This document shows, in pieces, positions 1 to 60,129 of a stretch of 60,129 nt of DNA. Under the pieces are notes generated by a model. It did not search any database. It saw only the letters and a list, made by a program, of their open reading frames with translations, and had not been told where the DNA came from. The number at the start of each line of letters is the position of its first letter. Within the stretch, counting starts at the first letter, position 1. The stretch comes from a virus: positions 1 through 60,129 of the IMG/VR virus record IMGVR_UViG_3300022752_000073; one strand, written 5' to 3'. The position numbers and the translations under genes are program-made.

Positions 1-133
1 CTCAAACCCCGTTGATCAAAAATTGCACGGGGTAGGGGGCGTTTTAGTTTTTTCTTTGTGATCTTTTGAGTGAAATACAGTGCATAGCACTACACACAAC
101 AAGCCGCCAGTTAGTGGGGGGTGGGGTCTAGAT

Positions 134-150
134 TTTCCCACCGTGGGAAA
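134..150. promoter_or_regulatory. 17-bp palindrome, type A (TTTCCCAC-N-GTGGGAAA)
   Basis: Perfect inverted repeat with a single central base, 131 bp upstream of the small regulator gene at 281. The homologous position in copy B (59094-59110) carries a different palindrome of identical length and outer bases. This is a likely operator for the adjacent gene product; the binding protein is inferred. Confidence 0.7.
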
Positions 151-280
151 AGCGAAGCCCTAGGTGTCAATTTGTTGCTATGTCGTGCAATCTATAACAA
201 ACTGTGGTGTAATACATTCATGGATCGGTGATGCGCGACTGATTCATACTTCTTAACCCTGCGCGAACGAAAGGGACATC

Positions 281-793
281 ATGTCCAAAACTCTCTCTTA
301 CGCAAACGAAGCCGCTTTGATCGCAACTGACTTGATTGAGGCAAAAAAGTATGAGGACAAGGCAACGTCATTACGTGATGGCGTCAACAAAAAAATCGTT
401 AAGTTGCACAAAGACAAAGTAGTGATCGGACGCTACAACACGTGCGCCACTGCAACATCTTTTGTTGACACATTGGTGGCGGGTGGCTTAGCTAAAAAGA
501 CTGCTCAGAACTATTTGTCACTGTTCAAGGACGCTGTCAATACTGGTAAACCAGTATTGGACTGGGGCGGCACCAAAGGCGGCAAGTCTCGCAAAGGCGC
601 GAAGGGCACCAAGGTTCAGACAAGTAAGGCATTTGCGGATCTATTTAGACCCGCATTCAACCATGACAAGGGCAAATCATTCATGGCATTGTGCGAAGCC
701 ATCGAGAATCAGTATCAAGCCGATTCGATCAAAACCATGTACGAGGGTTTTGTAGAGTACTTCAAAGCCGAAGGTGATCGGATCGAAGACTGA
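281..793 (+). CDS. Putative DNA-binding regulator, allele A (170 aa)
   Basis: Unrecognised family. About 57% identical by eye to the 174-aa protein at 59242 over residues 7-95, then almost identical over residues 119-165 (the FADL...VEYFK block). Residues 60-86 look like a helix-turn-helix, with a possible recognition helix AKKTAQNYLSLF at 71-82. The other allele has ASGTASNYLSTF there, so changes cluster at the start of the helix. The gene lies between two type A palindromes (134-150 and 1047-1063). The start has a modest AAGGGA ribosome site. Inferred role: it binds the palindromes through its variable N-terminal part and oligomerises or contacts a partner through its fixed C-terminal part. 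It could also be a replication or partition protein. Confidence 0.6.
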   Translation: MSKTLSYANEAALIATDLIEAKKYEDKATSLRDGVNKKIVKLHKDKVVIGRYNTCATATSFVDTLVAGGLAKKTAQNYLSLFKDAVNTGKPVLDWGGTKGGKSRKGAKGTKVQTSKAFADLFRPAFNHDKGKSFMALCEAIENQYQADSIKTMYEGFVEYFKAEGDRIED

Positions 794-804
794 TCAAACC
801 ACTA

Positions 805-832
805 AAAACCCCGCTTCGGCGGGGTTTTTTTT
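805..832 (+). terminator. Intrinsic terminator after regulator A
   Basis: Stem CCCCGC, loop TTCG, stem GCGGGG, followed by eight T. It isolates the regulator gene from everything downstream. The matching position in copy B has a terminator of different sequence. Confidence 0.9.
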
Positions 833-873
833 CGCCCAAAATTCCCCCACACCACAACATCCAGCACCATCAT

Positions 874-893
874 GCTCTTCCACGTGGAAGAGC
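874..893. repeat. 20-bp perfect palindrome GCTCTTCCACGTGGAAGAGC
   Basis: Ten-base arms with no spacer, present unchanged in both end copies (also 59846-59865). Because it stays fixed while the other palindromes switch, it probably binds a different protein (host or phage) or serves as an origin or packaging element. Confidence 0.7.
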
Positions 894-896
894 TTT

Positions 897-922
897 GATA
901 ACTGTTCCCTCAAAGCGGGCCG
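897..922. repeat. Direct repeat GATAACTGTTCCCTC...GCGGGCCG, unit 1
   Basis: A 26-base unit repeated at 1081-1106 with two differences, about 184 bp apart. The same pair occurs in copy B at 59869-59894 and 60013-60038. Iteron-like spacing makes an origin role possible. Confidence 0.6.
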
Positions 923-1046
923 CAAAGCAAGGGTTTACCGCCTGTGGATAATCATCCTACAAAGAAGTTGTCACGTGATTTAAATTATAAAGATGTTGTC
1001 ACAAGAAATCACACTACAAGATGTTGGCAACTTAAAACCTATCTTA

Positions 1047-1063
1047 TTTCCCACAGTGGGAAA
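1047..1063. promoter_or_regulatory. 17-bp palindrome, type A
   Basis: TTTCCCAC-A-GTGGGAAA, downstream of the regulator gene. In copy B the same position (59979-59995) has TTTCATAT-C-ATATGAAA, flanked by recognisably homologous sequence. This is the second site where the operator type differs between the copies. Confidence 0.7.
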
Positions 1064-1080
1064 TCGTACAGAAACATACT

Positions 1081-1106
1081 GATAACTGTTCCCTCGACGC
1101 GGGCCG
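1081..1106. repeat. Direct repeat GATAACTGTTCCCTC...GCGGGCCG, unit 2
   Basis: Second unit of the 26-base repeat begun at 897. It is followed by an imperfect inverted repeat centred on GGGAATTCCC (1119-1128). Confidence 0.6.
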
Positions 1107-1162
1107 TATTGACGCATAGGGAATTCCCCTGCGTAGTGCTACTTCCCACTGGTTGGACAAAA

Positions 1163-1179
1163 CTTCCCACGGTGGGAAA
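1163..1179. promoter_or_regulatory. 17-bp palindrome, type A (first base C)
   Basis: CTTCCCAC-G-GTGGGAAA, with a lone half-site about 20 bp upstream (1142-1150). It is retained unchanged in copy B (60095-60111), so the switch between copies does not reach this site. Confidence 0.65.
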
Positions 1180-1234
1180 TGTCAACTGCGTATAAGGCAG
1201 TGCTGTCTCGCGTTTTATTCAATTATTCCTAAAA

Positions 1235-1252
1235 ATTCTGTGACCACAGAAT
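1235..1252. repeat. Palindrome ATTCTGTG-AC-CACAGAAT
   Basis: Perfect 8-bp arms. It is the first of a cluster with half-sites near 1308-1317 and 1431-1440 and a larger palindrome at 1493-1514. The spacing is irregular. Could be operators or iterons of an origin or centromere. Confidence 0.55.
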
Positions 1253-1492
1253 AATATGAAACCCAGCATCCATGCGGGTTTCCGCAGGGTTTTTCCCCTA
1301 TTATTCTATTATTCTGTAAAAAATATATATGAAGAGACAATTTCAAAAAACTCCAAATTCCCCAGTTTTTGCTTAAATTCGCATGCTTGCTTACGCTCTT
1401 GGCGATGTTTTGTCTCTCTCATCTCAAAACCACAGAATAATGGAAAAATACACCCAAAACCTCTCACAACCCGCATGCCTATTGGCTTTGCT

Positions 1493-1514
1493 TTATTCTG
1501 TGCCCACAGAATAA
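1493..1514. repeat. Palindrome with 10-bp arms TTATTCTGTG, spacer CC
   Basis: Largest member of the ATTCTGTG/CACAGAAT family, about 58 bp upstream of the -35 box of the promoter at 1572. Position and symmetry fit an activator or repressor site. Confidence 0.55.
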
Positions 1515-1571
1515 TACAGAAAAAAAGGAATAATGCGGTTTTATCACCACATAACACTACCTTGTCACAAC

Positions 1572-1600
1572 TTGACATCCAAGACTCTTTGTGGTACAGT
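1572..1600 (+). promoter_or_regulatory. Sigma-70 type promoter P1
   Basis: TTGACA, 17-bp spacer, TACAGT. A near-consensus host promoter with an expected start near 1607. The first gene downstream is at 2234, so its leader is about 620 nt and begins with two small hairpins (1608-1627 with a GAAA loop; 1631-1644), then the boxA element. Confidence 0.75.
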
Positions 1601-1674
1601 AGAGGCTCAACACGTGAAAACATGTTGTAGCGTGAAATATCACGAAGGGGTAAATGGTGATCGTACCTAACCCA

Positions 1675-1700
1675 ATGGGCTTGCCCATGCTCTTTAACAA
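1675..1700 (+). promoter_or_regulatory. Hairpin plus boxA, rRNA-type antitermination site
   Basis: ATGGGC-TT-GCCCAT (1675-1688) is followed at once by TGCTCTTTAACAA (1688-1700), which matches the boxA of E. coli rRNA leaders. The next bases, CTTATCAAAC, also resemble the rRNA leader. Hairpin before boxA is the order found in rrn operons. Sitting about 70 nt into the P1 transcript, ahead of an 18-kb operon, it probably recruits host Nus factors. Confidence 0.7.
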
Positions 1701-1715
1701 CTTATCAAACCGGAT

Positions 1716-1732
1716 TTTCCCACTGTGGGAAA
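1716..1732. promoter_or_regulatory. 17-bp palindrome, type A
   Basis: TTTCCCAC-T-GTGGGAAA, 16 bp after boxA and about 110 nt into the P1 transcript. A bound protein here could act as a roadblock on the elongating polymerase. Confidence 0.65.
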
Positions 1733-2138
1733 TCAAACTAAACCGCCGCTCGGAACTAATGTATACGAGAAGCACATAGGCAGAACGCACGAGAAGAACA
1801 CCACGCCGTGCCATGAACCCTCCCTGTGCGAATAGGCGTACCGTAGTCAGTCGGTGCATTTTGTGGTGTAGGTCAGTAGTGTGCGTCATGTGTGGCACCG
1901 AACACGACCGATAGCAAAGCGCAAGTCAATACAGATACTGCCTAAATGTGTGGGGTGCTCTGCATGGAAACGTGCAACAACCCTAACGAAGAGTATGTAT
2001 GTGAGAGTGAGTGCTGATTTTTTATTTGATAGGCGACAAACCGCTCGCCGCACGGCATGAACCGAACACATACCAACAACTTCTAGGAACACGAACCGCA
2101 AGGGATATGCGTGAACGACAAACACTATCGCAGTTACA

Positions 2139-2162
2139 ACAGACGGGATAACAGACGGGATA
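2139..2162. repeat. 12-bp tandem repeat ACAGACGGGATA x2
   Basis: Two exact units followed by a partial third (ACAG). Just upstream of the hairpin at 2173. Role unknown. Confidence 0.6.
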
Positions 2163-2172
2163 ACAGATTGTC

Positions 2173-2215
2173 CTGTTAGCCTAGTGACAGTAGGCTAACA
2201 GATGCAATCCGCATC
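2173..2215 (+). promoter_or_regulatory. Two adjacent hairpins in the early leader
   Basis: The first has perfect 11-bp arms (CTGTTAGCCTA, loop GTGACAG). The second is GATGC-AATCC-GCATC. No T-tract follows, so this is not a simple terminator. Directly upstream of the first early gene, it may stabilise the mRNA, guide processing or bind a protein. Confidence 0.55.
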
Positions 2216-2233
2216 GTAATTAGGAGCTTAAAA

Positions 2234-2431
2234 ATGAGATACGTAACACTGAAAAAACTTGGCACACCCCAAAATCATGGGGCGTCTATCACCATCCCCT
2301 ACAACGGGGATGAGTTTGAATTTATTGACCCCGAATGGAGGGGTCTGGCGAGGCGCGCAGCCGCCTCCGAGGGAGGGCAAGCCCGAGAGGGCAATCGGGT
2401 TGCGATAATTGATGAACCCGCAATCAGGTAA
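2234..2431 (+). CDS. Hypothetical early protein (65 aa)
   Basis: Not recognised. Starts 7 bp after a TAGGAG ribosome site. The N-terminal half carries a mix of acidic and aromatic residues (NGDEFEFIDPEW, about 24-35); the C-terminal half is rich in Ala, Arg and Gly. First gene after the long structured leader. A weak terminator-like hairpin overlaps and follows its end, so it may be made in greater amount than downstream genes. Confidence 0.55.
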   Translation: MRYVTLKKLGTPQNHGASITIPYNGDEFEFIDPEWRGLARRAAASEGGQAREGNRVAIIDEPAIR

Positions 2432-2452
2432 AAAAGCCCCTGCCTGATTTTT
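2422..2452 (+). terminator. Weak terminator or attenuator
   Basis: AATCAGG pairs with CCTGATT across a 14-nt loop, followed by TTTT. The long loop makes it leaky. Confidence 0.35.
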
Positions 2453-2462
2453 CTGTAACCAA

Positions 2463-2479
2463 CTTCCCACTGTGGGAAA
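2463..2479. promoter_or_regulatory. 17-bp palindrome, type A (first base C)
   Basis: CTTCCCAC-T-GTGGGAAA, 20 bp before the start codon at 2500 and abutting that gene's ribosome site. Binding here could block transcript elongation into the operon. Confidence 0.6.
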
Positions 2480-2499
2480 TCAACCAAAGGAGAGTAATC

Positions 2500-2847
2500 A
2501 TGACGAAAGCAAGAGTGAGTAACCATGCTTCACGTGACTACGTGAAGAAAATGAAGGAGTTCAAAGCCAACAACATTTGGTCTGAGTGGGAGCGTGACGA
2601 GAACACCGACACCGAGGATGCACGTTACGTTGTCTATTCATATGGCAAACACTGGCCGTTGTTCATATACGAGGTCAGGACTGACATGTGGTTTGAGAAC
2701 GCTAGTAAGTACAGCGTGACAACATCAAAGCATAAATCGCAGTGCCATCCATGCACAGATACAACCAAACTGCACGTAGATGACATGATCAAAGTGCGCA
2801 ACAACGGTGTAGTTGGACTGATCGCACCACTGGGAGAAATAGCATGA
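2500..2847 (+). CDS. Hypothetical phage protein (115 aa)
   Basis: Begins after a clear AAAGGAG. It contains the pattern YGKHWPLFIYE...W..N..KYS.TTSKH..Q.HP, which I associate with small phage-encoded proteins of unknown role. It is conserved-looking and soluble, with no membrane segment. Its stop overlaps the start of the next gene (2844), so the two are translationally coupled. Type A palindrome 2463-2479 sits just upstream. Confidence 0.65.
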   Translation: MTKARVSNHASRDYVKKMKEFKANNIWSEWERDENTDTEDARYVVYSYGKHWPLFIYEVRTDMWFENASKYSVTTSKHKSQCHPCTDTTKLHVDDMIKVRNNGVVGLIAPLGEIA

Positions 2848-3059
2848 CAAACAACACATGTGACAAGTGCGCCCACTACACACCTGACCCCAATGGGAGC
2901 AATGAGGGTAGTTGTTCCCTGATGGGTGACATCAACCAAAGAAGCAACCCGATTGACGGTTGCTCCGGTTGGGATGTGGAGGGCTATTGTGCGGGTGTAT
3001 TTGTTGGTCCCAAGTTTGGGTGTATTCACTGGATAAGGAGAGAGCATGCCAACAACTGA
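2844..3059 (+). CDS. Small cysteine-rich protein (71 aa)
   Basis: Starts in an ATGA overlap with the preceding gene. Seven cysteines, including a CDKC pair near the N-terminus, suggest a zinc-binding or disulphide-stabilised fold. There is no signal peptide. Function unknown. Overlaps the next gene by 14 bp. Confidence 0.6.
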   Translation: MTNNTCDKCAHYTPDPNGSNEGSCSLMGDINQRSNPIDGCSGWDVEGYCAGVFVGPKFGCIHWIRREHANN

Positions 3060-3273
3060 CTGCCGCATATGCGGTGACGAGATCGACCCCCCAGCGAGGG
3101 CGCAATTAACAACCCTGTGCGTGGACTGCGGTGAGAAAGCCGCACGTCAGGAACGCAAGAGTTGGACGGTAGTGCAAGAGTACGGCAAGGGCGGGTACAT
3201 GTTCATCACACGTGACTCTGCACATCTGACCCTGAAACAAACAAACCAAAAGATATTGAGAGGTGATATATGA
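3046..3273 (+). CDS. DksA/TraR-type zinc-finger protein (75 aa)
   Basis: Residues 6-31 read CRICGDEIDPPARAQL...CVDCGEK, the layout of the C4 zinc finger of DksA/TraR proteins, with CxxC pairs 19 residues apart. It lacks the coiled-coil tip that full DksA pushes into the RNA polymerase secondary channel, so an effect on host polymerase is only possible, not shown. Coupled to both neighbours by short overlaps. Confidence 0.6.
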   Translation: MPTTDCRICGDEIDPPARAQLTTLCVDCGEKAARQERKSWTVVQEYGKGGYMFITRDSAHLTLKQTNQKILRGDI

Positions 3274-3437
3274 ATCAAGAACGCCAACACGCCATCATGG
3301 CGTGGACATACGTGAGGGAGTGCCTGAAGGCAGACTTCAGCGGCTCTATAAAAAACTTTGAGTTTGTAAAACTTCTGCACGACATGTCACGTGCGTATCC
3401 AAACGAGTTGAAGGAGATATTAGATGAAGCAAGCTGA
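3270..3437 (+). CDS. Small hypothetical protein (55 aa)
   Basis: Read directly from the sequence: it begins MNQERQHAIMAW and ends EILDEAS. Its start overlaps the stop of the gene before, its end overlaps the start at 3424, and GAGAGGTG lies upstream. It looks helical and soluble. Function unknown; support comes from gene packing. Confidence 0.5.
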   Translation: MNQERQHAIMAWTYVRECLKADFSGSIKNFEFVKLLHDMSRAYPNELKEILDEAS

Positions 3438-3630
3438 GGACAACATCACCATAGATATGTGGGAAACGCCACAAGTAGCAACAAGTTATATGTTCTACGT
3501 AGAGACCGATACCGGCGAACGCATAGAGTGGGATGCGCTGACTATCACACGTGCCAAGCGTATGCATGCGGCAACGCAGACCAACACGCCGGTGAATGTA
3601 AAAACTTTTGGATGGGAGCAAGTGAAATGA
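3424..3630 (+). CDS. Hypothetical protein (68 aa)
   Basis: Preceded by AAGGAGATATTAG. No recognised domain. The C-terminal region (ITRAKRMHAATQ) carries basic residues. It overlaps the 55-aa gene by 14 bp and its stop overlaps the next start (ATGA). Confidence 0.55.
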   Translation: MKQAEDNITIDMWETPQVATSYMFYVETDTGERIEWDALTITRAKRMHAATQTNTPVNVKTFGWEQVK

Positions 3631-3728
3631 GTAAAGCCAAAAAGATATGGATAGTCACGTACACATTGACGGCAAGCATCGCCTTGCTGGTCGTGTGCCT
3701 AGATCTGTTCATGTGGAGACCAAATTGA
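3627..3728 (+). CDS. Tiny membrane protein (33 aa)
   Basis: Starts at the ATGA overlap at 3627, although the frame stays open upstream to 3459. The sequence is MSKAKK, then a hydrophobic segment of about 20 residues, then MWRPN. A single-span inner-membrane peptide with a positive N-terminus. Could modulate the host membrane early in infection; role unknown. Confidence 0.5.
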   Translation: MSKAKKIWIVTYTLTASIALLVVCLDLFMWRPN

Positions 3729-3752
3729 CTCTATCTGTCAATCTGTTATAAT
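3725..3752 (+). promoter_or_regulatory. Sigma-70 type promoter P2
   Basis: TTGACT, 16-bp spacer, TATAAT; start expected near 3759. The -35 overlaps the stop codon of the tiny membrane gene. It drives the DUF3150-like/MoxR/VWA block, and a type B palindrome lies about 32-48 bp past the start. Confidence 0.8.
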
Positions 3753-3790
3753 GTAGTTCGTGTTAGTAAGTGTGTTAGTAAACGGTGTAA

Positions 3791-3807
3791 TTTCATATGA
3801 TATGAAA
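3791..3807. promoter_or_regulatory. 17-bp palindrome, type B (TTTCATAT-N-ATATGAAA)
   Basis: Same outer bases and length as the type A sites but a different inner tetranucleotide. It lies between promoter P2 and the gene at 3834, the right place for a roadblock operator. Type B sites otherwise occur only around the copy B regulator (59094, 59979). A degenerate relative may lie at 5846-5862, ahead of the VWA gene. Confidence 0.7.
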
Positions 3808-3833
3808 ACACCACAACCTAAAGGAAAGTAATC

Positions 3834-4736
3834 ATGAGTAACTTTGCAATCGACTTGGGCAACTTCAGCGTGTCCAAACTCTCAAGTTCTGCCCTAATCG
3901 TCAACTTGTCCCTGTCTGTATGGACGGGACGCAAGCTGGACAAGCGCGTATCTGAGGAGGTGGATCAACAGAACAGCACCAAGACCCGTGCTGGTAACTA
4001 CCACAAAAATCTTTTGGCAGGTTCATCCAAGCTGACCGAGATCACCAAGATCGCCAACGCTATACGTTCATGGATGTATGGGGTGACGCAACCTTGGGGC
4101 GACAACGGCGACCGTGTGCTGAACATGGCTCACTTCATGGAGTTCAAGGATCGGCTGACTGATTACGAGCAACAGTTCGGCACTGCTGTCAACAACTTTC
4201 TGAATGATTACGACACGCTAGTGGCGGCTGCCGCTTTCCAACTCGGTGACTTGTTCAACCGTGAGGACTACCCCACACGTGAGCACATTGAATCCAAGTT
4301 CGGCATGCGCTACAGCATGACCCCACTGCCTCAAGCGGGTGACTTCAGGGTGGACATCGGTGAGGAAGGACTCAAAGAGTTGCAGTCGCAGTACGAAGCT
4401 GTGTTGCAACAACGTGTTACAGGAGCAATGACCGAGGCATGGGAGCGACTGCATGACTGCCTGACTCGCATGTCAGAGCGGCTGACTGATGACATCGACA
4501 GCAACGGTGAGAGCAAGCGCAAGATATTCAGGGACTCGCTTGTCGAGAATGCCATCGAGATCTGCGGACTATTGAAGAGTTTCAACATAACCAACGACAC
4601 ACGGTTGGATGAGATGCGCAAGCAACTGGAGGATGCGATGCGCGGTGTGGATGCTGACTCACTACGAGACAGCGACAGTCTGCGTGAGCAGACAAAGCGC
4701 AAGGTGGACAACATCTTGTCTAAGTTCGATATCTAA
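3834..4736 (+). CDS. DUF3150-like protein of a MoxR/VWA cluster (300 aa)
   Basis: First gene after promoter P2, with an AAAGGAAAG ribosome site. Mostly helical by appearance, with charged stretches at 185-215 and 250-300. From memory it resembles DUF3150-type proteins found beside CobS/MoxR ATPase and VWA genes; this was not checked by search. The neighbours support that reading. Possible role: a substrate or adaptor of the AAA+ ATPase that follows after 26 bp. No catalytic motif is evident. Confidence 0.5.
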   Translation: MSNFAIDLGNFSVSKLSSSALIVNLSLSVWTGRKLDKRVSEEVDQQNSTKTRAGNYHKNLLAGSSKLTEITKIANAIRSWMYGVTQPWGDNGDRVLNMAHFMEFKDRLTDYEQQFGTAVNNFLNDYDTLVAAAAFQLGDLFNREDYPTREHIESKFGMRYSMTPLPQAGDFRVDIGEEGLKELQSQYEAVLQQRVTGAMTEAWERLHDCLTRMSERLTDDIDSNGESKRKIFRDSLVENAIEICGLLKSFNITNDTRLDEMRKQLEDAMRGVDADSLRDSDSLREQTKRKVDNILSKFDI

Positions 4737-4762
4737 TTTTTTAACCCAAAGGAGAAAGTAAC

Positions 4763-5845
4763 ATGTACAACGCAATCACACTCAAACAATCTGCTGACCT
4801 GATCGCCGCCGTGGGTGCTCAACAAACTGTCCTAGTGCAGGGCGAGATGGGCATCGGCAAGTCTGCGATCCTCAAGATGCTCAAGTCTTACTCGCAGTTC
4901 AAGGACGCGTACTTCTGCTACGTGGACATCACCACTAAAGATGTTGGTGACTTCATTGTTCCTAAGATCAAGGACATTGACGGTAATGAGGTCTGCTCGT
5001 TCATACCGAACGAAGAGTTCGGCTTTCACTTCAAGGGCAAGAAGGTTGTCATGATGTTGGACGAGATCGGCAAAGCGCGGGGGGGTGTACTCAATGCCTC
5101 ACTGCGGCTGATGAATGAGCGTTCGCTGGGCACCAATCAACTGAGCGAGGGGTCAGTGGTGTTTGGTACAACAAACTTGGCAGTGGAGGGTATCGGTGAC
5201 AACATTCCGCCGCATGCACGTAACCGCATCACTGTGGTGCGTGTTGCCAAGCCTAATGCCAAGACATGGATCGAGGAGTTCGCCATACCTTACGGTATCA
5301 ACCCTGTGATCATTGGTACGGTGGCTGAGTACCCCGAGATGTTTGCATCGTTCGAGGACTACGAGAAGCCCGAGCAGAATACATACATCAATGACCCCCG
5401 CACTGTGCGCAGTTCGTTTGTGACACCACGTTCTATGGAGAGGGCGGCGTATGTCTACGAGAACACTCGCATACTGGGTGATGATGTGATGTGTCATGCA
5501 TTGGCAGGAACGGTGGGTGAGAAAGCAATGCACAACATCTTGACGATGGACAAGCTCGACTCTCAACTTACCCCATGGGATGAGTTGATCAAGTCCCCCG
5601 ATACCGCGACCGTGCCAACATCTGCCGCCGCCGCATGTATGTTGGTTGCCAAAGCGGTGCATCGTATCGAGAACAGCAACATCGTTGCATGGATGAAGTT
5701 CTTGAACCGCATGCCCAAGGAGGCACAAGGTTTGTTTGCACGTAGCGTCATGTCTGACAAATGCCCCAAGCGTGACGTAGCCGCACGTAACACCGAGTTC
5801 GCTGGGTGGGCGGCTTCTAACAACTTCTTGTTCGCCAAGAAGTAA
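4763..5845 (+). CDS. MoxR/CobS-family AAA+ ATPase (360 aa)
   Basis: Walker A GEMGIGKS at residues 27-34 and Walker B VVMMLDEIGK with the acidic pair at 100-101. Sensor-1-like GTTNLA and the arginine-finger region HARNR follow at about 136-150. Strong AAAGGAG before the start. MoxR ATPases act as chaperones that remodel partners together with VWA proteins, and the next gene is such a protein. In phages this pairing is uncommon and its target is unknown. Confidence 0.85.
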   Translation: MYNAITLKQSADLIAAVGAQQTVLVQGEMGIGKSAILKMLKSYSQFKDAYFCYVDITTKDVGDFIVPKIKDIDGNEVCSFIPNEEFGFHFKGKKVVMMLDEIGKARGGVLNASLRLMNERSLGTNQLSEGSVVFGTTNLAVEGIGDNIPPHARNRITVVRVAKPNAKTWIEEFAIPYGINPVIIGTVAEYPEMFASFEDYEKPEQNTYINDPRTVRSSFVTPRSMERAAYVYENTRILGDDVMCHALAGTVGEKAMHNILTMDKLDSQLTPWDELIKSPDTATVPTSAAAACMLVAKAVHRIENSNIVAWMKFLNRMPKEAQGLFARSVMSDKCPKRDVAARNTEFAGWAASNNFLFAKK

Positions 5846-5874
5846 TTTCATACCGTATTAAAAAGGAGAGAGAT

Positions 5875-7065
5875 ATGTCATTCTTAACACAGCTCAACAC
5901 GTTGACGCCAACGCAACGTGTACAACGTGCCCATGTGGAGTTGATGGGGCACCCCGAGACGATGACCTATGCCGGTGTGCTGATGGTCGGCAAGTACACA
6001 GTATCTGACGATGTGCCCACTGCACGTACCAACGGCATCGACTGTGAGTACGGTATCGAGTTCATCAACAAGATATCTGATTCTGATTTGCGCGGTCTCA
6101 TCATGCATGAGAATCTGCACAAGGTGTATCAACACATGTTCCTGTGGCAACATCTTTACAAGGAGGATGGGCGCACTGCCAACATGGCGTGTGACTACGT
6201 GATCAACCTTGAGATAGATGCTATCGGCAAGCGTACCAACGGGTTCATCACATTACCCAAGGGTGGACTACTTGACCACAAGTATGCAGGTATGGACTCG
6301 CAGACTGTGTACAACATGTTGCGAGAAGACAATGACGATGACGGGGCCGGGCACGGTGAAGGTGAGGGTAGTGGTCTTGATGACCACGATTGGGAATCAG
6401 GGCAAAACATGTCTCAAGAAGATATTGAGCAGGTTGCCAAAGATATCAATCAAGCCATTCGTCAGGGTCAGCTCATGGCAGGTAAGCTGGGTGGTAATCA
6501 GTCACGTGAGTTGGGTTCGCTCATCGAGCCCAAGGTTGATTGGCGTGAACAACTACGTGAGTTCGTTTCATCCACTGCTGTAGGTAAGGACATTTCTACG
6601 TGGCAACGTGTTAACCGCAGGTGGTTACAACACGACATGTACATGCCGTCAACCATCACTGAGACGGTGGGGCGTATCGTGGTTGCTGTTGACACATCGG
6701 GTTCTATCGGTGAGGCTGAGTTGTCTAAGTTCCTATCCGAGGTTCAAGGCATCTGCCTCAACGCCATGCCCGAGAGAGTTGATCTTTTGTATTGGGACAC
6801 TGAGGTGGCGTCCCATGAAATCTACACACAGGAAAAACTTTCCACGTTGTCGTCATCTACCAAACCGGCGGGCGGTGGTGGCACTGACGTATCGTGTGTT
6901 TCCAAGTATCTTAAAGACAATCAGATCAAGCCCGAGTGTGTGATCGTGCTGACTGATGGCTACATCTATGGTGATTGGGGTACATGGAATGCCCCAGTGC
7001 TGTGGACTATCGTAGGTGGTAACAAAGTCGTACCCCCCATGGGTACAACTATTCACCTTGACTAA
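5875..7065 (+). CDS. Metallopeptidase-like/VWA protein, DUF2201 type (396 aa)
   Basis: Two parts can be seen. The N-terminal part has an HExxH zinc motif (HENLH, 78-82) followed by NMACDYVINLEID, as in the DUF2201 putative metallopeptidase domain. The C-terminal part has a VWA fold with the MIDAS signature DTSGS at 273-277 and a later LTDGY. An acidic, Gly-rich linker (about 150-180) separates them. Partner of the MoxR ATPase upstream. Together they could unfold or cleave a host or phage protein; the substrate is not known. Confidence 0.8.
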   Translation: MSFLTQLNTLTPTQRVQRAHVELMGHPETMTYAGVLMVGKYTVSDDVPTARTNGIDCEYGIEFINKISDSDLRGLIMHENLHKVYQHMFLWQHLYKEDGRTANMACDYVINLEIDAIGKRTNGFITLPKGGLLDHKYAGMDSQTVYNMLREDNDDDGAGHGEGEGSGLDDHDWESGQNMSQEDIEQVAKDINQAIRQGQLMAGKLGGNQSRELGSLIEPKVDWREQLREFVSSTAVGKDISTWQRVNRRWLQHDMYMPSTITETVGRIVVAVDTSGSIGEAELSKFLSEVQGICLNAMPERVDLLYWDTEVASHEIYTQEKLSTLSSSTKPAGGGGTDVSCVSKYLKDNQIKPECVIVLTDGYIYGDWGTWNAPVLWTIVGGNKVVPPMGTTIHLD

Positions 7066-16739: not shown

Positions 16740-17102
16740 ATGGACATACTGGAACTTGCGGAAGAACACGAAGAGTTGTTTAGCAAAGAGTTTTTGAAAT
16801 GGTTACCTAACAACTTACATGTCTGGGCAGCGTTTTGCGATCAGGCGTTTAAGATCAGATCAAGCGGTTTCAAACACTACTCTGCTCGTACCATCGTGCA
16901 CTATCTGCGCCACCATTCCGCAGTTACTGAATCTGCTGGGCCTTGGAAGATCAACAACAATTTCAGTCCGTATCTTGCACGACTATTTGACAAACGATTC
17001 CCAAATCTTGCTGGTCTTTGGGAATACAGAGAAACAAAACGTGCCAAGTTAGACCATACCCCACTATTTACTAACAATGAACAACAGAGGTTATTCCCGT
17101 AA
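16740..17102 (+). CDS. Conserved phage protein (120 aa)
   Basis: Contains KHYSARTIVHYLRHHSAV (about 46-63), then WKINNNFSPYLARLF and WEYRETKR, a pattern I have seen in unannotated phage and prophage proteins near replication genes. Basic, probably DNA-associated. It overlaps the next HTH gene by 26 bp. Confidence 0.6.
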   Translation: MDILELAEEHEELFSKEFLKWLPNNLHVWAAFCDQAFKIRSSGFKHYSARTIVHYLRHHSAVTESAGPWKINNNFSPYLARLFDKRFPNLAGLWEYRETKRAKLDHTPLFTNNEQQRLFP

Positions 17103-17325
17103 ATTTGTAGATGCGAACAATAAAGCAGACCCATTTCATGTTGGTGTTCAACTTGGTCGCATTTGCATTGAACGGGACATTCCAGTACAGGATGTTGCAG
17201 AACATCTTGGTGTATCACGGCAAGCCATATACATGTGGTTCTTGGGAAAAGCAATACCCCACCCGAGAAAACGCAAAGTATTATGGGAACTGCTTAGTCG
17301 TTTAACGACCAACGCCGCAACTTAA
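17077..17325 (+). CDS. HTH DNA-binding protein, Cro/CI-like (82 aa)
   Basis: HTH at about residues 37-56: VQDVAEHLGVSRQAIYMWFLG. The rest is short, with no oligomerisation domain visible, as in small Cro-like proteins. It could regulate the early-to-late switch. Starts inside the end of the preceding gene. Confidence 0.75.
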   Translation: MNNRGYSRKFVDANNKADPFHVGVQLGRICIERDIPVQDVAEHLGVSRQAIYMWFLGKAIPHPRKRKVLWELLSRLTTNAAT

Positions 17326-58918: not shown

Positions 58919-59093
58919 ATTTCACATAGAAACATCTTGGGGGGTGTTATCTATAGGTAGCTCAAACCCCGTTGATCAAAAATTGCACGGGGTAGGGGGC
59001 GTTTTAGTTTTTTCTTTGTGATCTTTTGAGTGAAATACAGTGCATAGCACTACACACAACAAGCCGCCAGTTAGTGGGGGGTGGGGTGTCGAT

Positions 59094-59110
59094 TTTCATA
59101 TGATATGAAA
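59094..59110. promoter_or_regulatory. 17-bp palindrome, type B
   Basis: TTTCATAT-G-ATATGAAA, at the position where copy A has a type A site (134-150). Flanking bases remain alignable, so the site core itself has been exchanged. Confidence 0.7.
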
Positions 59111-59241
59111 TTCAAAGCCCTAGGTGTCAACTTGTTGCTATCCCGTGCAATCTATGACGTTTTGAGGTGTAATACATTCATGGATCGGCGAGGTGCGGTC
59201 GATTCATAACACTCTTAACCATCTGCACATTAGGAGGTCAT

Positions 59242-59766
59242 ATGACCAAAACTCTCTCTTACACTGCCATTGCGGCAGCGGTGGCAACTTCTTTGGTATC
59301 TGCAAAGTCTTATGAGGACAAAGCAGTTTCTCTAAAAGAAGATGCAAACAAGCAAATCCTTGTTTTGCACAAAGCAAAAGTTGTTATAGGGCGCAAGGGT
59401 AAATGCTCTGTTGCAACAGCGTTTTATGATGGGCTCATTTCAGGCGGTTGGGCATCGGGCACGGCGTCAAACTACCTTTCAACCTTTCGGGAAGCAGTGG
59501 CTACCGGTAAACCGGTGCGGGAATGGAATCCCGCACAATCAAAAAACAAAGGTGCAAGCCCATCGGGGGCAAGGGCGGGTAGCACTGCTACCGGTAGCAA
59601 GCCCTTTGCAGATTTGTTGAGACCCGCATTCAACCATGACAAGGGAAAATCATTCATGGCATTGTGCGAAGCCATCGAGAATCAGTATCAAGCCGATTCG
59701 ATCAAAACCATGTACGAAGGTTTTGTAGAGTACTTTAAATCTGAAGGGGATGAAATAGAAGAGTAA
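59242..59766 (+). CDS. Putative DNA-binding regulator, allele B (174 aa)
   Basis: Begins after a strong TAGGAGG. The first six residues after Met, and from about residue 123 onward, are almost the same as in the 170-aa allele A. Between these it is only about half identical. The candidate recognition helix reads ASGTASNYLSTF where allele A reads AKKTAQNYLSLF, and the linker (about 96-118) is unrelated. The gene lies between two type B palindromes. It is probably the cognate protein for type B sites, including the one at 3791. The stronger ribosome site suggests higher expression than allele A. Confidence 0.6.
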   Translation: MTKTLSYTAIAAAVATSLVSAKSYEDKAVSLKEDANKQILVLHKAKVVIGRKGKCSVATAFYDGLISGGWASGTASNYLSTFREAVATGKPVREWNPAQSKNKGASPSGARAGSTATGSKPFADLLRPAFNHDKGKSFMALCEAIENQYQADSIKTMYEGFVEYFKSEGDEIEE

Positions 59767-59776
59767 ACCCCTACAA

Positions 59777-59804
59777 CCCCCCGAGAAATCGGGGGGTTTT
59801 TTTT
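59777..59804 (+). terminator. Intrinsic terminator after regulator B
   Basis: Stem CCCCCCGA, loop GAAA, stem TCGGGGGG, then eight T. Same place as the copy A terminator but a different sequence; the bases after it are again shared. Confidence 0.9.
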
Positions 59805-59845
59805 CGCCCAAAATTCCCCCACACCACAACATCCAGCACCGTCAT

Positions 59846-59865
59846 GCTCTTCCACGTGGAAGAGC
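59846..59865. repeat. 20-bp perfect palindrome, second copy
   Basis: Identical to 874-893. It did not change with the A/B switch. Confidence 0.7.
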
Positions 59866-59868
59866 TTT

Positions 59869-59894
59869 GATAACTGTTCCCTCAAAGCGGGCCG
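59869..59894. repeat. Direct repeat GATAACTGTTCCCTC unit (copy B)
   Basis: Matches 897-922 exactly. Its partner unit is at 60013-60038. Confidence 0.6.
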
Positions 59895-59978
59895 CAAGAC
59901 ATCGAAAAGAATCATCCTACAAAGAAGTTGTAGTGTGTTATCACGTGACAAGATGTTGGCAACTTAAAATCTAAGTAA

Positions 59979-59995
59979 TTTCATATCATATGAAA
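59979..59995. promoter_or_regulatory. 17-bp palindrome, type B
   Basis: TTTCATAT-C-ATATGAAA, replacing the type A site of copy A (1047-1063). Confidence 0.7.
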
Positions 59996-60012
59996 TCACA
60001 ACAACTTATACC

Positions 60013-60038
60013 GATAACTGTTCCCTCGATGCGGGCCG
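60013..60038. repeat. Direct repeat GATAACTGTTCCCTC unit 2 (copy B)
   Basis: Matches 1081-1106 with a single base change (60030). Confidence 0.6.
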
Positions 60039-60094
60039 TATTGACGCATAGGGAATTCCCCTGCGTAGTGCTACTTCCCACTGGTTGGACAAAA

Positions 60095-60111
60095 CTTCCC
60101 ACGGTGGGAAA
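60095..60111. promoter_or_regulatory. 17-bp palindrome, type A (first base C)
   Basis: Same sequence as 1163-1179. It shows that a type A site remains downstream of the type B regulator. Confidence 0.65.
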
Positions 60112-60129
60112 TGTCAACTGCGTATAAGG

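Follow-up and report, generated by a model that had tools for sequence, protein, structure and literature searches.

Regulator genes and palindromic sites at the contig ends

The window analysed here is a single viral contig of 60,129 bp whose two ends, 1-1197 and 58961-60129, are two versions (A and B) of one stretch. Each end stretch holds one gene for a protein of 170-174 aa, together with flanking 17-bp dyads. The regulator gene of allele A (281..793, + strand) was recognised as an ORF and through the family alignment. It encodes 170 aa with the helix GLAKKTAQNYLSLF, the HTH being placed via an AlphaFold2 (AF2) model of homologue B. The gene of allele B (59242..59766, + strand) was recognised as an ORF and modelled with AF2, and it encodes 174 aa with the helix GWASGTASNYLSTF. 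The first two-thirds of the two proteins have diverged and the last 55 residues contain 5 differences, in agreement with the first-pass annotation, which had described a nearly unchanged C-terminus behind a diverged N-terminal part. In the AF2 model of allele B, two N-terminal helices (7-23 and 25-44) precede an HTH formed by helices 56-67 and 72-88, with a block pLDDT of ~89-93. The linker is low-confidence or disordered, and the C-terminal part is small, helical and less certain.

The A-type sites S1 to S5 lie in the left part of the window. S1 (TTTCCCAC-C-GTGGGAAA, 134..150; neither this nor any other site is assigned a strand) is located upstream of regulator A at a position conserved in relatives, and S2 (TTTCCCAC-N-GTGGGAAA, 1047..1063, palindrome scan) downstream of it. 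S3 (CTTCCCAC-G-GTGGGAAA, 1163..1179) was retrieved by a mismatch-tolerant scan and from relatives, S4 (1716..1732) by the palindrome scan and from relatives, and S5 (2463..2479), 20 bp ahead of the ORF 2500 start codon, by the mismatch-tolerant scan. The palindrome scan also returned S6 (3791..3807), which is of the B-type, TTTCATAT-G-ATATGAAA, and precedes the DUF3150-like ORF 3834 by 26 bp. A degenerate site, TTTCATACCGTATTAAA (5846..5862), stands before the VWA/DUF2201 ORF at 5875 and is intact in the relative L082. At the other end, the palindrome scan gave a B-type S1 (TTTCATAT-G-ATATGAAA, 59094..59110) upstream of regulator B and a B-type S2 (TTTCATAT-C-ATATGAAA, 59979..59995), and the tail of copy B carries an A-type S3 (60095..60111) inside the last 99 bp, which are identical to copy A. 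The palindromes that the first-pass annotation had placed around the two genes, A-type at 134 and 1047 and B-type at 59094 and 59979, are thus present exactly as claimed, at 17 bp; the sites at 1163, 1716, 2463, 3791 and 60095 are additional to that annotation. The pattern TTTC-N9-GAAA occurs at 6 sites in the window against 1.5 expected from shuffles. With up to 2 mismatches the A-type has 6 sites (0.24 expected), and with up to 3 mismatches the B-type has 4 (0.26 expected).

Besides the regulator, the contig encodes a terminase large subunit, portal, capsid, a family A DNA polymerase (PolA) and a DUF927 primase/helicase-like protein. The nearest terminases among catalogued phages, at 54-57% identity (HTVC027P, DSL-LC04), belong to podoviruses of 57-65 kb, HTVC023P-type and related. 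A second small HTH protein, HTH_3/Cro-like and 82 aa long, is encoded at 17077-17325 in the early region. About 700 bp with small early ORFs and S5 (window 2141-2843) are missing from L082 and present in L081. The Rfam scan of positions 1-6000 gave no match at gathering level.

Placement of the sites and what it implies for function

The sites occupy three kinds of position: ahead of the regulator gene, within the leader, and in front of successive early genes, 11-71 bp from the start codon. The most regular placement is 24-27 bp before the DUF3150-like gene, seen in most relatives, and the AAA ATPase and VWA/DUF2201 genes are also preceded by sites. The two best sigma70-like promoters were assigned on the + strand by consensus match only, TTGACA-17-TACAGT (1572..1600) upstream of S4, with flanking DNA conserved in L006, and TTGACT-16-TATAAT (3725..3752) upstream of S6. 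The promoter positions are weak, since the consensus scan gave fewer matches than shuffles did.

Other elements share this region. A boxA-like TGCTCTTTAACAA at 1688-1700, which resembles the antitermination element of rRNA leaders, follows a small hairpin, CCCAATGGGCTTGCCCATG, and lies just before S4 and downstream of the best promoter. A 26-bp repeat, GATAACTGTTCCCTCRAMGCGGGCCG, is present downstream of the regulator at 897-922 and 1081-1106 (also from 59869 onward); it is nearly invariant and occurs twice in almost all aligned relatives and three times in L107. A second palindrome pair, ATTCTGTG-N2-CACAGAAT, at 1235-1252 and 1493-1514, is kept in many relatives, does not switch with the regulator type and possibly represents the sites of another regulator.

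The placement bears on what the protein may do at the sites. It could bind them and activate, or antiterminate, early transcription, as the position of sites downstream of the two promoters and in untranslated leaders and the boxA-like element ahead of S4 would allow. We regard this as unlikely, because perfect dyads around one central base suit a DNA-binding protein rather than an RNA nut site, and sites ahead of successive start codons fit roadblocks better. We give somewhat less credence to the dyads being origin or centromere-like partition sites, with the protein as a replication initiator or segregation protein and the alleles as incompatibility types. Several sites do cluster in the non-coding leader by the gene, together with other repeats. 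However, about half of the sites precede successive genes, with 11-71 bp between site and start codon, PolA and the DUF927 primase/helicase-like protein are encoded by the phage itself elsewhere, and we found neither a ParA-type ATPase nor a match of the regulator to ParB or replication-initiator families.

The distance of 11-30 nt between many of the sites and the start codons that follow would also suit RNA hairpins near ribosome-binding sites, with the protein as a translational repressor. This is very improbable: the complementarity extends to the two bases that flank the one in the centre, a pairing impossible in an RNA hairpin, and these two bases also change symmetrically, from C-G to T-A. 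Moreover, S1-S4 are distant from start codons, and the covarying protein residues fall in the predicted HTH. The complementarity up to the free central base, the symmetric changes and the covariation with the predicted HTH instead point to sites bound by a DNA-binding homodimer.

A regulator family in viral contigs

Searches with each of the two proteins and with the alignment collected a family of 35 viral contigs, and DNA scans added three more members (L163, L228 and L312), giving 38 contigs beyond the window. We detected no homologue in the GTDB set of one genome per bacterial and archaeal species. The HTVC023P-type podoviruses (Pelagibacter phage HTVC027P, phage DSL-LC04) are similar in genome size to the window phage but lack a homologue of the regulator, as do all 50,697 catalogued phage records (isolated phages). 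The comparison of 27 members with Pfam, NCBIfam and PHROGs resulted in chance-level matches and no repressor family, and the regulator did not match HTH_3/XRE families either. The PDB contained no sequence match, Foldseek returned no usable structural relative, and literature searches for the palindrome motif gave irrelevant matches. The family seems to consist of DNA-binding regulators not described before, occurring in several specificities. One further candidate, L405 (1-600), with a seemingly truncated gene, was left out of the counts; its gene is cut at the HTH and continues into its own upstream region in reverse-complement form, and this inverted-repeat contig is a probable assembly fold-back.

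In five phage records we found no match to PF00589 (integrase) or PF00239 (serine recombinase, resolvase), although the controls matched. Lysogenic immunity of the classical kind is unsupported, since no integrase, serine recombinase or ParA was recovered and no homologue turned up in either the GTDB genomes or the isolated phages.

Regulator type and site type are coupled across relatives

The dyads around the gene were catalogued contig by contig, with the protein sequence left out of account. All 189 of the 189 perfect TTC-N9-GAA dyads near the gene, in 38 contigs, match the single type of their own contig, and the number expected by chance, from resampled non-redundant regions, is 0.05. 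Where enough flank is present, a phage typically has 5-10 sites, of one type per contig. In the near-complete relatives these are CCAC- or ATAC-type sites, 6-8 each, clustered around the gene within ~7 kb. The first-pass annotation had seen an exchangeable cassette here. Any such cassette is dispersed over 5-10 sites and ~5 kb and does not consist of two sites around one gene.

The inner half-sites fall into four types, or six when the outer base is included, and each goes with particular sequences of the second HTH helix. CCAC sites are accompanied by AKKTAQ, ATAT sites by ASGTAS and GKGTAA, ATAC sites by AAGTSA, KGTSA and some AKGTAA, and CTAC sites by AKTAS, AKTSS and PKTAN, with VSTAN in L312. 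Among 28 distinct proteins, G or K at residue 73 separates A from C at site base 5 perfectly, and Q at residue 76 separates C at site base 6; the exception to the rule for K at residue 73 is L312, which has S73 with CTAC sites. The C-terminal residues are not top-ranked for site type, and the C-terminal type is not predictive of the site. When the HTH columns are left out of the tree, at least 7 changes of site type have to be placed on it. The supported branches offer only 3 phylogenetically independent contrasts, all concordant (3/3, p = 0.25), and given this small number a single-residue code is a suggestive lead.

Palindrome scans of the viral collection with DNA alone recovered L163, L228 and L312, which the protein searches had missed and whose helices are as expected from their dyads, except for residue 73 of L312. 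Contigs with several sites and no gene were either pieces of members already known or contigs of same-group phages that break off ahead of the gene, the exceptions being L143 and L154. These two were rejected as family phages; they are GC-rich, unrelated and without the regulator family despite many TTCCCAC-N-GTGGGAA dyads (6 and 10, respectively), which perhaps belong to a separate dispersed-operator system. They must use the dyad differently. When TTTCATAT-N-ATATGAAA was scanned alone in the viral collection, it gave 63 scattered single matches and none in the family.

As far as sequence comparison goes, the coupling of regulator and sites is firm. The earlier proposal that regulator and operators had switched specificity together is borne out in so far as the type goes with the HTH rather than with the C-terminus and DNA scans recover matching members. 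The check it had suggested, whether the N-terminal type predicts the palindrome type in homologues, came out positive in the 38 contigs (189/189 sites).

Switches on near-identical backgrounds

The proteins of L092 (ATAC) and L097 (CCAC) are nearly identical outside residues ~62-104, so that the pair differs mainly in the HTH and linker. All 5 of the 5 alignable sites are switched between these two phages, with 4 of the 8 inner bases changed in each and the outer TTC/GAA kept. The flanks of S1 differ at 5 of 80 bases, and a control pair of the same type showed 0/40 inner changes. Similarly, comparison of window copy A with L006 (ATAC) revealed symmetric core changes at S1, S3 and S4 and three changes at S2, while the blocks between the sites are 97-100% identical.

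Protein and sites are physically linked, and the site region is a fine recombining mosaic among relatives, so one might argue that they are merely co-inherited by linkage without any interaction. We consider this hardly credible, as the cores switch while the flanks stay nearly constant (at S1 of L092/L097, 4/8 inner bases against 5/80 in the flank), the intervening blocks remain 97-100% identical, and none of the 189 sites is mismatched. The mosaic rather indicates that recombination supplies the HTH and site blocks, and the absence of surviving mismatched sites is best explained by selection for matching. The protein and its many scattered sites thus appear to have undergone several joint changes.

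The two end copies are most likely strain alleles

The first-pass annotation had spoken of two end copies. Copies A and B share an identical prefix of exactly 127 bp at the left and an identical suffix of exactly 99 bp at the contig end, and 127 and 99 are both standard k values in the JGI metaSPAdes series (33, 55, 77, 99, 127). Overlaps equal to k values point to graph ends. Furthermore, 6 of the 6 related records examined, four of which are 60-63 kb long, have one copy of the regulator gene, and no contig other than the window mixes site types. Given overlaps of this length and a single gene copy in the near-complete relatives, we read A and B as most likely alleles of one locus, from two co-occurring strains that were assembled together, placed at the ends of a circular assembly.

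In principle, a tandem duplication followed by divergence could have placed both genes in one genome, each gene controlling a separate regulon, and the window does hold A-type sites (134-2479) plus B-type sites (3791, 59094 and 59979). Such a duplication seems fairly unlikely, since it fits neither the single copy in the relatives, nor the lack of other mixed contigs, nor overlaps of assembler k length, nor the presence of an A-type site in the final 99 bp of the B tail. If A and B are alleles, chimeric joins or natural recombination would account for the A-type site at 60095 and the B-type site at 3791. The allele reading corrects the picture of two end copies, and it does not weaken the coupling of regulator and sites.

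Proposed mode of action

We think it likely that the regulator is a dimeric, autoregulated HTH repressor or roadblock of the early genes, acting in a stoperator-like manner, that its sites switch with its HTH, and that the end copies are strain alleles. The small HTH protein, presumably as a dimer, would bind 17-bp dyads with a single central base: a dyad upstream of its own gene, several more within the untranslated leader, and another ahead of each successive early start codon. It would repress its own gene and keep early transcription low by obstructing initiation or elongation wherever a site occurs. Specificity would reside in and around the second HTH helix, and when this segment changes, all sites would change, which may result in discrete specificity groups among closely related phages. 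Binding, dimerisation, repression, roadblock and the immunity effect with its groups are all inferred, and by analogy the types may be heteroimmune. The network may serve lysogeny, superinfection control or timing.

We lean slightly towards a broader reading, in which recombination has repeatedly swapped the HTH, 5-10 symmetric operators have been re-specified in step, and near-identical, co-occurring phages have split into mutually ignoring groups. As part of this reading, a stoperator-like network with symmetric sites would operate in phages that lack any known system for integration.

An old question is how the specificity of a regulator with numerous operators can change without a broken intermediate state. 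Here the switches can be seen on nearly identical backgrounds, in closely related phages and with a short list of candidate helix residues, which makes the family a natural data set for the protein-DNA recognition code and for the origin of phage specificity groups. The results suggest a repressor-like network in phages without a known integrase, and they bear on whether such phages can keep related phages out of a cell they occupy or tolerate them there.

Comparison with known systems

Two features expected of a generic homodimeric HTH regulator are seen here, a predicted HTH (AF2 helices 56-67 and 72-88) and helix residues that covary with operator bases, the latter with few independent contrasts. 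The lambdoid CI/Cro regulators (lambda, 434, P22) use 17-bp dyad operators with one central base, and changes of the recognition helix re-specify these operators, as in the classic 434/P22 helix swap. The present system shares the dyad architecture and the helix changes that accompany operator changes. However, its regulator has no HTH_3/XRE match, its sites are spread before several genes rather than clustered in overlapping promoters, and, unlike temperate phages of the lambda CI/XRE type with their integrase, the five records searched have no PF00589/PF00239 match. ParB/Noc proteins with parS/NBS also have palindromic sites near the gene and a co-evolving specificity, as in our case, but the present system has no ParB-family match or ParA, and its sites precede coding genes singly.

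The nearest working analogue is the repressor/stoperator system of Cluster A mycobacteriophages (L5, Bxb1), in which one repressor has many dispersed cognate operators or stoperators (PMC6550527, PMC9283540). The site consensus varies there with the repressor between related phages and correlates with immunity groups (PMC6550527, PMC9283540). The present system is not a member of this group, as it has another protein family, unrelated to Rep, symmetric 17-bp sites, fewer sites and no integration module, with no integrase or partition gene found. Cluster A phages are temperate, and their repressor binds as a two-domain monomer to asymmetric 13-bp sites that are oriented with transcription and number up to ~30 per genome, whereas each site described here is a perfect 17-bp dyad in which the central base is free. 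The likeness lies in the overall design, one regulator with many dispersed cognate sites, here 5-10 and of one type per contig.
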